Shown here: one piece after another, positions 6,270 through 59,655 of the stretch | Position numbering within the stretch: position 1 is the stretch's first letter | How the letters are laid out: each line of letters opens with the position of its first letter | Source of the DNA: Levilactobacillus lindianensis | GTDB taxonomy: Bacteria > Bacillota > Bacilli > Lactobacillales > Lactobacillaceae | Length of the DNA: 64,000 nucleotides | Direction: 5' to 3' | Assembly (NCBI RefSeq): GCF_003946095.1 | Contig: NZ_RHOD01000008.1 | Span: 1-64,000 of the forward strand | Made by a program: the position numbers and the translations under genes | The notes under the pieces: model-generated | Databases searched by the model: none | The model's input: only the letters and a program-made list of their open reading frames with translations | Told to the model about the DNA's origin: nothing

Positions 6270-6914
6270 ATGATGCGTTATCAACATTATTTTTGGGATT
6301 TTGATGGCACGCTGGTGAACACCTACCCGGGGATGGTGCGGGCCTTTAGCGACGCCCTGGTAGCCAGTGGGGTCAATGATTTTGAGATTGATACGGAGGC
6401 CATCTATCAAGCCATGCGGCAACACAGTGTGGGCACGGCCTTTCAACGGTTCACAGCCGAATACCAGCTGGATGAAGCCCGCCTGCGAAAGATTTATCAA
6501 CGGTCTGTGGGTGAGGCAATTGCCGATGCCGGGGTCTTCGCTGGGGTGACCGATCTGTTGTCAGCGATCGTGGCTGCTGGCGGTCATAACTATCTGGAAA
6601 CGCATCGTGATAAGGGCGCATTAGACTTCTTAGCGGATCTGGGCTTAGCGGATGACTTCACCGACATGGTAACGGCCGATGACCACTTTCCCCGTAAGCC
6701 TGATCCCAGTGGACTCCAGTCCCTGTTGACACGTTATGATATCGACCCCAAGACAGCTATTATGGTTGGTGACCGCAACTTGGATATCGCCGCGGGTCAC
6801 CGCGCTGGTATGGCCGGGGCACTGTTTGATCCAGAGCACATGATTGTCGATGAGAGCCAACCAGAGGTTCGGGTGACCCAGATGGCTGAGCTGCAGGAAT
6901 GGCTAAGAGTGTAA
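6270..6914 (+). CDS. HAD-superfamily hydrolase, phosphoglycolate-phosphatase-like
   Basis: Haloacid dehalogenase-type phosphatase, 214 aa. Motif I is WDFDGTLV (9-16) with the nucleophile Asp at 10, motif II sits around ETHRD, and motif III/IV are KPDPSGL and GDRNLDIAAG. The helical cap between motifs I and II makes it subfamily IA. The substrate cannot be told from sequence. Two adjacent ATG codons (6270, 6273) follow AGGAGGAAA; the second has the better spacing. The structured repeat copy A begins at the stop codon. Confidence 0.85.
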   Translation: MMRYQHYFWDFDGTLVNTYPGMVRAFSDALVASGVNDFEIDTEAIYQAMRQHSVGTAFQRFTAEYQLDEARLRKIYQRSVGEAIADAGVFAGVTDLLSAIVAAGGHNYLETHRDKGALDFLADLGLADDFTDMVTADDHFPRKPDPSGLQSLLTRYDIDPKTAIMVGDRNLDIAAGHRAGMAGALFDPEHMIVDESQPEVRVTQMAELQEWLRV

Positions 6915-7034
6915 AAAAGGCGTTTAACCGGCGAGTATTAACGGTGATAACCGAGAAATCTCGTTTTGGGATCTCTTGGCTATCAGTGTTAAGCGGAGTC
7001 GGCTGTCTTTTTTATACGGTTTCGACCATGTAGA
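6913..7034 (+). repeat. Dispersed long-hairpin repeat, copy A
   Basis: Most divergent of three related elements (see 14057 and 34614). It begins at the HAD gene's stop codon. The outer stem is AAAAAAGGC / GTCTTTTTT and the inner stem is GATAACCGAGAAATC / GATCTCTTGGCTATC. It shares GGCGAGTATTAA, TTAAGCGGA and the trailing TTTCGACCAT with the other copies. In this copy the outer arm ends in a T run and probably works as the gene's terminator. Confidence 0.7.
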
Positions 7035-7044
7035 ATTGCTCAAA

Positions 7045-7084
7045 AATAAGGCGTCCCACCCGATCCCGGTAGGACGCCTTTAAC
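7045..7084. terminator. Bidirectional terminator between converging genes
   Basis: Nine-base-pair stem AAGGCGTCC / GGACGCCTT, A-rich before and T-rich after on both strands. It lies between the plus-strand HAD gene and the minus-strand kinase gene. Confidence 0.75.
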
Positions 7085-13171: not shown

Positions 13172-14047
13172 ATGGATGATGTGCAGCAGTTAATGAAACG
13201 GCATACCTACACGACAAAGTTTTCCGTAGCGTTCTTTTATGGATTGCTGGTGTCGATCGCGGTGAACTTCTTCTGGACGCCTGGTAAAATTTATTCTTCA
13301 GGGGTGACCGGACTGGCCCAATTGGTTAACACGTTAACCACGGGTCTCGGAGCCTTTCACATCAACACCGCCTTGGGATTGTTCTTGATTAACATCCCCA
13401 TGTTCGTGTTGGCGTGGAAACAGATTGGTAAAACGTTCACTGTGTTTACCTTTATTTGTGTGCTATTTGCGTCGATTATGATTCGGTTGATTCAACCAAT
13501 CCATTTAACCAGTGACCCCATTATCTGTGCGATCTTCGGGGGAGCTGTCAACGGCTTCGGAACCGGGTTCGCGTTGAAAAATGGGATCTCTACCGGTGGG
13601 TTGGATATCATTGGAATTGTTGTTCGGCGGAAGACCGGGCGAAGCATGGGGACCATTAACATTGCCTTCAACAGTCTGATTGTAATCAGTGCGGGCTTCG
13701 TTTATGGCTGGCCGTACGCCCTGTATTCAGCACTGGGACTCTACGTGAATGCCAAGGTTATCGACATGACGTTTACGCGGCAGCAGCGGATGCAGGTCAT
13801 GGTCATTACGGATCGACCTAAGACGGTTATCGATAGTATTCAGAACCACATGCGACGGGGGATCACGATTGTCCACGGCGCAGAAGGGGCGTACCATCAC
13901 GATGAGAAGACGATTCTCTTCACGGTGATTACGCGTTACGAAATGGACGCGTTAGAAACAGCAATGGAAGAGGCCGATCCTAAGGCCTTCGTCAGCATCT
14001 CCGATACAGTGAAGGTGTTGGGGCATTTCTATGAACCTAAGTGGTAA
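13172..14047 (+). CDS. YitT family integral membrane protein
   Basis: A 291-aa protein with about five or six N-terminal membrane segments (residues 20-175) of the YitT/DUF161 type, including SSGVTGLAQLVN and the glycine-rich ISTGGLDIIGIVVRRKTG loop. A soluble C-terminal DUF2179 domain (about 205-285) contains RRGITIVHGAEGAY. This architecture is very common in Firmicutes. The physiological role is not established; a transporter is the usual guess. ATG 13172 has a weak GAGGT site. The dispersed hairpin copy B lies 10 bp after its stop. Confidence 0.9.
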   Translation: MDDVQQLMKRHTYTTKFSVAFFYGLLVSIAVNFFWTPGKIYSSGVTGLAQLVNTLTTGLGAFHINTALGLFLINIPMFVLAWKQIGKTFTVFTFICVLFASIMIRLIQPIHLTSDPIICAIFGGAVNGFGTGFALKNGISTGGLDIIGIVVRRKTGRSMGTINIAFNSLIVISAGFVYGWPYALYSALGLYVNAKVIDMTFTRQQRMQVMVITDRPKTVIDSIQNHMRRGITIVHGAEGAYHHDEKTILFTVITRYEMDALETAMEEADPKAFVSISDTVKVLGHFYEPKW

Positions 14048-14056
14048 AAGATCAGA

Positions 14057-14180
14057 GTGCGCTCAAGGGCGGTTAGCTGGCGAGCATTAAGGCTGATAAG
14101 CAGATAATCCTGGTCTTGGATTATTTGCTTATCAGGTTTAAGCGGAACCAGCTGCCCTTGAGTGCACGTTTCGACCACAT
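14057..14180 (+). repeat. Dispersed long-hairpin repeat, copy B
   Basis: Reference copy of the family. The outer stem is GTGCGCTCAAGGGC (14057-14070) with GCCCTTGAGTGCAC (14154-14167), fully paired with one G-T. A middle stem is AGCTGG / CCAGCT, separated by a GGTT bulge. The inner stem is GATAAGCAGATAATCC / GGATTATTTGCTTATC around a seven-base loop. Conserved non-stem segments are GGCGAGCATTAAGG, GGTTTAAGCGGA and the trailing GTTTCGACCA. It begins 10 bp after the YitT stop. No T run follows, so it is not a standard terminator. Confidence 0.85.
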
Positions 14181-14199: not shown

Positions 14200-14262
14200 C
14201 CACAAAAACAAAAATCACCAAAGGTGAGGGACTGTGACCATTGTCATGGTCCCTCACGGTGA
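14200..14262. repeat. Hairpin in the yitT to teichoic-acid gap
   Basis: Strong stem GTGAGGGAC / GTCCCTCAC with further TGAC / GTCA pairing inside and TCACC / GGTGA outside. On the minus strand it is followed by TTTTTGTTTTT, so it would terminate leftward transcripts; no leftward gene lies here. The rest of the gap (to 14374) holds only the promoter at 14327. Confidence 0.6.
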
Positions 14263-14326
14263 TCAAATAGGCTTCACGCCCGTTTCTTAAGCCTTTTTAA
14301 AATTCTCTAGGTTCACCGGGCAGATG

Positions 14327-31603: not shown

Positions 31604-32533
31604 ATGACAGAAAAACTGTCCATGCAAGCAATCATTTTGAAGTTACAACAGTACTGGTCCGCACAGGGCTGCATGCTGATGCAAGCTTACGATACCGAAA
31701 AAGGGGCCGGGACGATGAGTCCTTACACCTTCTTACGCGCGATCGGACCAGAACCTTGGAACGCCGCTTACGTTGAACCTTCCCGCCGGCCAGCCGATGG
31801 TCGTTACGGGGAAAATCCTAACCGGTTGTACCAACACCATCAATTCCAAGTGGTCATGAAGCCTTCACCAGATAACATTCAGGAACTTTACCTGAACAGT
31901 CTGAAGGAACTTGGCATTAACCCACTCGAACATGATATTCGTTTCGTGGAAGATAACTGGGAAAACCCATCCATGGGTTGTGCCGGTGTTGGTTGGGAAG
32001 TTTGGTTGGACGGAATGGAAATCACTCAGTTCACTTACTTCCAAGTCGTTGGGGGGATGGCAGTTGATCCCGTCACTTCCGAAGTGACCTATGGTTTGGA
32101 ACGTCTGGCGTCTTACGTCCAAGATGTTAACTCCGTCTTCGACCTGGAGTGGGCCGATGGCGTTAAGTATGGCGATATTTTCAAGGAACCTGAATACGAA
32201 CATTCCAAATACAGCTTTGAAGAAAGCAACCAAGACATGCTGTTACGGCACTTCAACGAATACGAAGATGAAGCCAAGAAGCAAATCGCCAACGGCCTGG
32301 TTCACCCGGCCTATGACTACATCTTGAAGTGTAGCCATACCTTTAACTTGCTCGATGCCAGAGGTGCTGTGTCCGTGACTGAACGGGCCGGCTACCTGTC
32401 CCGTATCCGGAACATGGCACGTGCCGTGGCTCGCGCCTTCGTTAACGAACGGAAGAAGCGTGGTTTCCCACTGATCAAGGATGAAGCCCTGCGGACAAAA
32501 CTATTAGCAGACGACGAGGAGGCCAAAAAATAA
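31604..32533 (+). CDS. glyQ: Glycyl-tRNA synthetase alpha subunit
   Basis: Catalytic subunit of the bacterial alpha2-beta2 type glycyl-tRNA synthetase, 309 aa. It has the class II core with [57 protein letters not shown] and [16 protein letters not shown], all highly conserved. ATG 31604 follows AAGGAGG. Its stop overlaps the glyS start by one base, which gives balanced subunit synthesis. Confidence 0.97.
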
Positions 32534-34608
32534 TGGCACACACATTTTTACTGGAAATTGGACTAGAAGAAATGCCAGCCCACGTGGTAACGCCAGCTAT
32601 CAAACAACTGGTTAAACGGACGGCAGATTATTTAAAGGAACAGCGCGTGGCTTACGATGACATCAAGCCATTCTCAACGCCTCGCCGGTTGGCCATCCAA
32701 ATCAGTGGTTTAGCCGACAAGCAGGAAGATATTAGCGAATCCGTTAAGGGTCCCGCCAAGAAGATTGCTCAGGATGCCGATGGCAACTGGACGAAGGCCG
32801 CTATTGGCTTTACCCGCGGGCAAGGTTTGACTCCTGACGACATTACGTTTAAGGAAATTAAGGGGACGGAATACGTCTACGTTGACAAGTTCATCGCTGG
32901 CGAACCCGTCGCTGCGGTCTTGGCTGGGTTAAAGGACATTGTGACCGCCATGACCTTCCCAACCATGATGAAGTGGGGCACCCATCACTTCGAATACATC
33001 CGACCAATTCGCTGGATCGTCGCCTTGCTGGATGCTGACGTGATTCCATTTAGTATCTTGGACGTCACGACCGGCCGCAACACTCGCGGTCACCGTTTCT
33101 TAGGGACCGACGTGGACATTGCCACGGCAGCCGACTACGAAGCCGATCTTACGGCTCAATTCGTGATTGCCGACGCCGACAAGCGTAAGGCGCTCATCAA
33201 GAGCCAAATCGAAAAGATTGCCACCGATAACAACTGGACGGTTACCATCGACGGCGGGTTATTGGAAGAGGTTAACAACCTGGTCGAATGGCCAACTGCC
33301 TTTGCCGGGAGCTTCGATGAGAAGTACCTGACTATTCCCGAAGAAGTCTTGATTACCTCGATGCGTGATCACCAACGGTTCTTCTACGCACGGAATGCCG
33401 AGGGCAAGCTCTTGCCTAACTTCATCTCTGTTCGTAATGGGAACGACCACGACCTGCAAAACGTCGTTGCTGGGAACGAAAAGGTTCTGACGGCACGGTT
33501 GGAAGACGCCATGTTCTTCTACACCGAAGACCAGAAGAAGTCGATTGCCGATTACGTGGAACGACTCAAGTCAGTTAGTTTCCATGATAAGATCAGCACG
33601 ATGGCTGAAAAGATGGATCGGGTCAAGGCCATCGTGGGCGTGCTGGCCAAGCACCTGCACCTAAATGATACCCAGACTCAGGCCGCCCTGCGTGCCAGTG
33701 AGATCTACAAGTTCGATCTGGTTACCGGGATGGTTGGCGAGTTCGCCGAATTACAAGGGGTCATGGGTGAAAAGTATGCCTTACTGGCCGGGGAAGACCC
33801 AGCCGTGGCCCAGGCCATTCGTGAACACTACGAACCGATCTCCGCTAACGGGGACTTACCAGAATCCGTGCCGGGTGCCGTATTGGCCTTGGCTGACAAG
33901 TTCGATAGCATCCTGACCTTCTTTGCCGCCGGTATGATTCCTAGTGGATCCAATGACCCTTACGCTTTACGCCGTCAGGCCATCGGAATTGTGCGGATTG
34001 TTACCGACCAACAGTGGTCCTTGCCAATTGCTGACCTGGCTCAGGCCTTCATCACGGCCGAAGCGGACGCTAAAGTGGCGCCTCAGCTTGATCAAGCTAG
34101 TCAAATCGACGCTGTGATTGGTTTCGTGAAGGATCGGATTCGGAAGATCTTGCGTTCTGCTAAGCAACGTCACGACATCATTGATGCCGTCACCAACAGT
34201 TCTAGCAGCGATGTTCTGCGGATCTTTACGGCTGCCGACATTCTGGCTAGCCATGCCGACGATGCCAACTTCAAGGCCGTTATTGAGTCCTTGACGCGGG
34301 TCATTCGTTTGGCGCAGAAGGCCCCAGCCGAATTGGCGACGGCCACGGTTGATACCGATCTGTTTGAAAATGACAGTGAGGGTGCCTTGCACCAAGGTGT
34401 TGCTGAAGTAGCGACCGCCGCTGACAAGACGCTGGCTGACCTCTACGCAGCCTTAGCTGACATTCAACCGACGATTGCGGCTTACTTTGAAGCTACGATG
34501 GTTATGGATAAGAACGATGCCGTTCGGAATAACCGGTTAACCGAATTGAGCGGCTTAGCTCGTCTGACTTTGAAGTTGGGTGACTTGGACCAATTAATCG
34601 TTAAATAG
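32533..34608 (+). CDS. glyS: Glycyl-tRNA synthetase beta subunit
   Basis: tRNA-binding subunit of glycyl-tRNA synthetase, 691 aa, the usual size. It begins [17 protein letters not shown] and shows [20 protein letters not shown], the HD-like central region and the C-terminal anticodon-binding part ([17 protein letters not shown]). One-base overlap with glyQ couples translation. The dispersed hairpin copy C begins 6 bp after its stop. Confidence 0.97.
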
Positions 34609-34613
34609 AAAGA

Positions 34614-34736
34614 GTGGGTCAAAAGGCGGTTAGCTGGCGAGCATTAAGGCTGATAACCGAATAATCCCAGGCTTGGATTGTTTGGTTATCAGGTTTAAGC
34701 GGAACCAGCTGCCTTTGGACACACGTTTCGGCTATA
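34614..34736 (+). repeat. Dispersed long-hairpin repeat, copy C
   Basis: Third member of the family. The outer stem is GTGGGTCAAAAGGC (34614-34627) with GCCTTTGGACACAC (34711-34724), 12 of 14 paired. The middle stem is AGCTGG / CCAGCT with a GGTT bulge. The inner stem is GATAACCGAATAATCC / GGATTGTTTGGTTATC. The segment from GGCGGTTAGCTGGCGAGCAT on is identical to copy B over about 30 bases, while stem positions differ in a compensated way. It trails with GTTTCGGCTATATAG. Confidence 0.85.
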
Positions 34737-34785
34737 TAGATTTGACGCTACTGGTGGGTCTGAGGATTGTCTCCTATCCGTTGAA

Positions 34786-34829
34786 ATGGTTGTGACTGAC
34801 ACTTTTGGTGTGGGTCACGGCCATTTTTG
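34786..34829 (+). terminator. Terminator downstream of glyS
   Basis: Stem ATGGTTGTGAC / GTCACGGCCAT with further CAC / GTG pairing inside and a T-rich tail. It lies after repeat copy C, so a glyS transcript would include that hairpin. Confidence 0.7.
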
Positions 34830-59477: not shown

Positions 59478-59501
59478 TATGGTGTCAAATAATTTATGGT
59501 T

Positions 59502-59614
59502 CATCTTCAGGGCAGGGTGAAATTCCCGACCGGCGGTAAAGTCCGCGACCCGTGTTAAGCGGTTGATTCGGTGTAACTCCGGAACCGACAGTAAAGTCTG
59601 GTATGCAGAAGATG
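59502..59614 (+). promoter_or_regulatory. FMN riboswitch (RFN element)
   Basis: Closing helix CATCTTC (59502-59508) with GAAGATG (59608-59614). Inside are the invariant blocks GGGCAGGGTGAAATTCCCGA and CCGGCGGTAAAGTC, then CCGACAGTAAAGTCTGG. It senses flavin mononucleotide and reduces expression of the downstream transporter. Confidence 0.96.
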
Positions 59615-59655
59615 AGACGTTGCTCTTTGCGTGGGCTCATGTTTGCGTAAAGCCA

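Follow-up and report, generated by a model that had tools for sequence, protein, structure and literature searches.

An apparently undescribed 127-nt hairpin element of Lactobacillales, a candidate mobile unit at intrinsic terminators

What is the long hairpin that begins within a few bases of the stop codon behind three genes of Levilactobacillus lindianensis, and does it serve those genes or has it settled there on its own account? The window analysed here is the whole stretch of 64,000 nucleotides at positions 1 to 64,000 of contig NZ_RHOD01000008.1. The features that bear on the question are listed below; bit scores refer to the covariance model R1, z-scores to folding against shuffled sequences, and the gene products are presumed from resemblance.

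6270..6914, + strand: open reading frame before copy C, product presumably a HAD phosphatase, stop codon within the first bases of the element
6904..7029, + strand: hairpin element copy C, diverged, R1 99.9 bits, also recorded as direct repeat D1
7048..7080, + strand: terminator-like hairpin 3' of copy C, recognised by eye, rejected by the terminator scan
13172..14047, + strand: open reading frame before copy A, product presumably a YitT-type membrane protein, stop codon 4 nt ahead of the element, matches in 35 of 35 genus genomes
14052..14178, + strand: hairpin element copy A, 127 nt, R1 139 bits, z -10.2
14214..14263, + strand: second hairpin 3' of copy A, terminator-like stem, T tract not directly behind, recognised by eye, rejected by the terminator scan
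32533..34608, + strand: open reading frame before copy B, product presumably a glycyl-tRNA synthetase beta chain, stop codon abutting the element
34609..34735, + strand: hairpin element copy B, 127 nt, R1 132.3 bits, z -6.9
34784..34828, + strand: intrinsic terminator 3' of copy B (locus L189), from the sequence and the terminator scan

The 20-mers shared by copies A and B each occur exactly twice in the window and in none of 100 shuffles. Between these two copies the first-pass annotation had described three outer pairs changed on both sides (C-G to T-A, T-A to C-G and G-C to A-T) and an inner flip from G-C to C-G, all of which were confirmed when the arms were paired by eye; two further outer C-G pairs of copy A, absent from that description, are mismatches in copy B (G.A and A.G). 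It had also spoken of a three-copy family, and copy C is indeed a third member (61% identity over 132 nt in the direct-repeat comparison), but the family turned out to be far larger. A BLAST search returned 26 matches in the own genome, and the model R1, built from 24 own copies (the 26 BLAST loci minus L019, L021 and L026, plus the third window copy), found 80 matches at E<=0.01; of these, 32 were weaker opposite-strand matches overlapping the same palindromes and were removed by hand, which leaves 48 places. The search with a covariance model that the annotation had proposed thus yielded many further copies, in the own genome as well as in its relatives. The richest relative, G033, carries 101 places by R1. 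Among the 35 genomes of the genus, 33 have matches at E<=1e-12, ranging from 0 (G015, G021) to 95 (G033), counts which include a few second-strand matches. BLAST across genomes was positive in 31 of 58, all within one genus, and R1 reached at least 69 of 151 genomes sampled across the family (20 of 40 genera) and at least 24 of 198 across the order, 16 of the latter outside the family in f2, f3, f5, f7 and f9; the family and order counts are lower bounds because both scans had stricter filters. The matches in these five other families are weaker (best E 4e-5 to 4e-14), and the frame GGCG..TTAG / CTGCC can be read by eye in most of the order-level loci printed. A pattern scan of named genomes placed the element, among the matches listed, in Levilactobacillus, Lactiplantibacillus, Companilactobacillus, Lentilactobacillus, Lacticaseibacillus, Ligilactobacillus and Paucilactobacillus, with one Lapidilactobacillus match by pattern only. 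Five of the pattern matches listed fell in unrelated taxa, four of which (L097, L119, L142, L149) were not confirmed by R1, the fifth being L162.

The element family is apparently undescribed. Rfam gave no match at the element, and the sole match of the window at the gathering threshold is an FMN riboswitch at 59499-59617; at E<=1, six loci returned five Rfam matches, none overlapping the element. A literature search found no description by title or abstract, with subscription journals mostly outside its coverage; within that scope no named element was found, in line with the first-pass annotation, which knew of none with this form. One BLAST query with a window copy had no match in plasmids, three other plasmid queries matched one Aerococcus tenax record (592 kb) and three Pediococcus damnosus plasmids exclusively, and one query with L205 had no match in phages, each search being a single BLAST query and hence of limited reach. 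A core-pattern scan of viral contigs picked out two stretches, L428 6430-6497 and L429 997-1075, which might reflect phage carriage, a misfiled piece of chromosome or chance.

When trimmed to their end motifs, the 24 aligned copies measure 126 or 127 nt in 23 cases and 130 nt in the remaining one. In the consensus, read from the outside inwards, the paired outer arms give way to a one-sided bulge in GGCG-GTTA-G, followed by a second stem, an asymmetric conserved pair GAGCATTAA / TTAAGCGGA and a long variable stem, closed at the tip by a loop of the type AATCC-YGGKYTT-GGATT. Changes on both sides occur in 26 of 46 pairs among the 24 own copies, with a covariation score of 0.427, where shuffles give 0.186 and slid pairings no more than 0.104. 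In the cross-genus alignment A2 (131 rows fitted to R1, including three opposite-strand rows) they occur in 45 of 46 pairs, and the score is 0.723 as compared to 0.185 and at most 0.089. Compensatory change, as had been claimed from copies A and B, is thereby borne out, the score exceeding all 500 shuffles and all slid pairings. After removal of overlapping rows, the ratio of G-U to A-C cells on the sense strand is 84:16 (alignment A1), 375:114 (A2), 292:76 (A3) and 179:55 (A4); without pairs in which either type is common, the ratios are 220:45 (A2), 97:48 (A3) and 72:42 (A4), with sign tests over pairs giving p = 2e-5, 0.087 and 0.12, respectively. The excess is thus clear across genera, and inside the genus it is not significant once common pairs are excluded. 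A mutational strand bias was rejected as its source, as the downstream flanks hold 163 C/T and 181 A/G differences. Together, the G-U excess on the sense strand and the lack of a C/T excess in the flanks favour a constraint on the folded sense strand.

The copies are positioned with respect to genes much as the first three had suggested: 32 of the 48 own copies start within -11 to +14 nt of the stop codon of a same-strand gene, and by a second method a stop lies within -15 to +60 nt on the sense strand in 33 of 48 as compared to 8 of 48 on the antisense strand. The same measure gives 19 of 30 versus 3 of 30 in G033 (30 of its 101 copies), and 9 of 19 versus 5 of 19, a weak bias, for the order-level loci. 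In other genera, where usable neighbours were available for 108 of 128 copies, a same-strand gene lies upstream in 86 of 108, in 66 of those 86 within -15 to +30 nt; four copies are located between divergent genes and seven overlap an open reading frame of 90 codons or more. As to whether a unit has two stem-loops, the copies are divided: a terminator-like hairpin with a T tract stands behind 27 of 48 own copies and is missing between tandem copies, which occur head-to-tail here and, in another case, in G326. By the terminator scan, a terminator-like site follows within 110 nt downstream in these 27 of 48 in sense and in 11 of 48 in antisense, and in other genera one lies within 130 nt in 47 of 108 as compared to 4 of 108. 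At L399, L418, L420 and L176 the element is located directly behind a T tract. Three terminator core patterns searched for in the window were found neither away from the elements nor at them, and are uninformative. By eye, the terminator that follows the element in Lactiplantibacillus and Companilactobacillus (L067, L081, L082, L100, L117; L057, L086, L103) resembles a sequence type that recurs within the respective genus. Ten G033 copies (L402, L405, L408, L409, L413, L416, L419, L421, L425, L426) adjoin a longer repeat around position 1500, common on the right side and in L408, L416, L419, L425 and L426 also present on the left, with no clear terminator adjoining; this repeat is perhaps part of a larger composite repeat.

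A comparison of orthologous sites reveals what occupies these places when the element does not. At the end of the yitT-like gene, read over 330 nt in 30 of the 35 genus genomes, the full element is present in five (G000, G007, G032, G033, G016), a core-deleted form in G031 and G019, and none was seen in 23; in L263, L264, L265, L269 and L270 an apparent second family of long GC-rich repeats stands, by eye, behind the terminator. Together with their flanks, 30 of the 48 own sites were traced in relatives, 29 of them being found in G007, 28 in G032 and 28 in G031; of the G033 sites, 30 were fetched and 17 were traced likewise in G030, G003, G025 and G002. At eight sites, namely L185, L202 and L235 of the own genome, the yitT-like site of G016, and L398, L401, L411 and L423 of G033, a relative without a visible element has a different terminator hairpin or core in place while both flanks are recognisable by eye; at L401 and L423 the difference is confined to the core, the filled and the empty genome having the terminator stem base in common. 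For L185, L202 and L235, the similarity of all eight element-free relative sequences to the new hairpin scores 0.20-0.30 (median by chance 0.23, 95% 0.35), and 27 of 35 full-element sequences share it at >=0.55, whereas 8 of 35 do not. Since one homologous hairpin is common to three empty relatives at L185 and L202, terminators do not turn over spontaneously at this distance. Four sites free of any visible trace retain the terminator of the filled genome (L189, L236 and L176 in G031; L191 in G032 and G031), and they count against the idea that the element replaces what it finds. L191 is probably a loss because G007 holds a remnant there, while the other three may be losses in the eroding G031 or insertions without replacement. 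L178, L196, L410, L414 and L415 were left out of this tally as ambiguous. A crude automatic caller, which misses remnants visible by eye, reported 26 sequences without any piece of the element, 11 of which share the hairpin.

Copies are also lost. Counted by hand, copies of at least 90 bits, taken as intact, number 20 across 29 sites of G007, 18 across 28 of G032 and 2 across 28 of G031, a gap of which part could be ascertainment, since the sites were chosen for a copy in the own genome and G031 is more distant. Remnants visible by eye at about a dozen G031 sites indicate that this genome has lost copies its relatives keep. Deletion from GCGG to GCGG was considered as a general route of loss and rejected: it was seen by eye at a few sites, but a strict pattern search found one.

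On balance, we regard the element as probably a non-autonomous mobile hairpin of the Lactobacillales that seeks out terminators and in many cases supplies a new terminator core. Its unit would be the imperfect hairpin of 127 nt, in many cases with a short linker and then a terminator hairpin behind it, and it would insert at intrinsic terminators with its orientation fixed. It might do so in two ways, either by replacing the resident terminator hairpin or its core while the flanks, and at some sites the stem base, are kept, or by being placed directly behind the T tract. As termination would be kept, an insertion should cost the host little, and the inserted hairpin would join the 3' untranslated RNA; later on, inner stems would pass between copies, tandem duplicates would arise and internal deletions would wear copies down. 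Since many insertions of the own genome are of old date and common to relatives, we infer movement from the polymorphism of sites. Both hairpins presumably move together in one event, recognition may act on the folded sense strand as single-stranded DNA or as RNA, and a host or mobile protein would do the moving. The near-absence from plasmids and phages in the one-query searches would be unusual for an active mobile element and counts against such activity. Going further, and only tentatively, it might be speculated that this is a new kind of transposition unit, in which the folded single strand recognises terminators and swaps in its own, enabling spread without harm to transcription, driven by a protein outside the recognised transposase families whose loss lets copies erode as in G031.

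A different view, which we consider rather unlikely, is that the hairpin is an RNA module in the service of the host, acting in mRNA end protection, in processing or as a protein-binding hairpin, and kept for the expression of the preceding gene, its spread being old and incidental. A 3'-UTR structure had been among the first suggestions, and as far as position is concerned it fits, with the sense orientation and the closeness to stop codons; the covariation, and the preference for G-U over A-C on the sense strand with no matching bias in the flanks, point the same way. Summed over usable sites, moreover, blocks of the element are 85-93% identical in G032 and 83-90% in G007, as compared to 84% and 77% in the next 100 nt. 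However, the three window genes that precede the element are unrelated by their presumed names, the gene end that carries copy A lacks it in most genomes read, as given above, G031 has it intact at two sites, and G015 and G021 have no match at E<=1e-12.

The paired changes themselves might have arisen differently, namely by template switching within the palindrome (quasi-palindrome correction) combined with exchange between copies, complementarity being kept in this way and not by selection on the folded strand. Exchange does occur. In 6 of 36 usable orthologous comparisons (37 minus L179-G032, which holds no element) the inner stem is replaced on both arms while the outer arms are nearly identical (L176-G007, L178-G032, L180-G007, L183-G007 and L236 in both), so that the paired change is in part a product of such exchange. 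At one place, L199 (the same as L022), the asymmetric internal loop has become a near-perfect palindrome, as template switching predicts. Nonetheless, hardly any aligned own copy lacks the one-sided bulge or the asymmetric conserved pair, a 4-nt one-sided bulge is seen by eye at the same GGCG place in 12 of 19 order-level folds, and the excess of G-U over A-C cells on the sense strand likewise speaks against this explanation, which appears improbable. Selection on structure, the simplest reading offered at first, hence stands in part, carried by the covariation and the G-U excess and qualified by the block replacements.

An ordinary REP-type element that owes its mobility to a Y1 (RAYT-like) transposase would also give dispersed imperfect hairpins outside genes, sometimes in tandem, and a REP- or MITE-type element, likewise proposed at the outset, comes nearest to what was found. 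However, Y1_Tnp (PF01797) is present in 23 of the 35 genus genomes and RVT_1 in 10, and among the eight genomes with at least 50 matches in 5 and 1, respectively; PF01797 is missing from G032, G002 and G016, which hold 58, 55 and 52 matches, yet five hits, which include several fragments of a single gene, come from G031 with its 7. Both enzymes, the sole ones tested, were rejected as partners, as neither distribution follows copy number across these 35 genomes. Similarly, a constant target duplication was not found around 33 own copies (mean longest shared string 4.70 versus 4.77 by chance). Direct repeats around 30 G033 copies are in weak excess (4.87 versus 4.53, a value reached by 8 of 400 shuffles), and for 10 hand-picked G033 copies, where 0 of 400 shuffles reach the value, this is a hint only. 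Given in addition that the unit is far longer than REPs, a Y1-driven REP is very improbable; ordinary drift and a plain terminator were likewise considered, and none of the three fits.

If the favoured reading of a mobile, terminator-targeting hairpin is correct, food, gut and probiotic bacteria harbour an abundant structured element that has so far escaped notice, which colonises terminators without breaking them and has rewired the 3' ends of dozens of genes per genome. It would confound the annotation of 3' ends, small RNAs and terminators in Lactobacillales, and the genomes at hand (G030 to G033; G000, G007 and G032 versus G031) would provide a natural series of gain and loss for finding the enzyme.

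Among known systems, REP/RAYT repeats share with the element that they are dispersed imperfect palindromes outside genes, whereas the latter lies in gene sense and its copies are not tracked by Y1_Tnp. REPs are also far shorter than 127 nt. Group IIC introns prefer sites just behind intrinsic terminators, but the element has neither an intron-like length nor a reverse transcriptase, and by eye it does not read as the R boxes of integron attC sites. Stem-loop repeat clusters number seven in Enterococcus faecalis and three in Lactobacillus johnsonii according to one survey (PMC2267715). In pneumococcus (PMC3049150), SPRITEs, which consist of an 18-bp duplex and a uridine-rich tract, are terminator-like and enriched near gene 3' ends, and in BOX and RUP pairing takes place between the terminal inverted repeats. 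All three repeats are scarcer in S. mitis and very rare in the remaining streptococci; they resemble the element as small dispersed hairpin repeats. The nearest known kin in behaviour would appear to be EFAR of Enterococcus faecalis. EFAR is reportedly (Venditti et al. 2007) palindromic, mostly about 170 bp long and made up of two stem-loops, and is said to enter stem-loops which thereby lose most of their hairpin, part of the stem being left at the element ends. This resembles L401 and L423, with their shared stem base and differing core; against that description, the present element stands apart in its near-constant first hairpin of 127 nt, its preferred gene orientation and its spread across the order.
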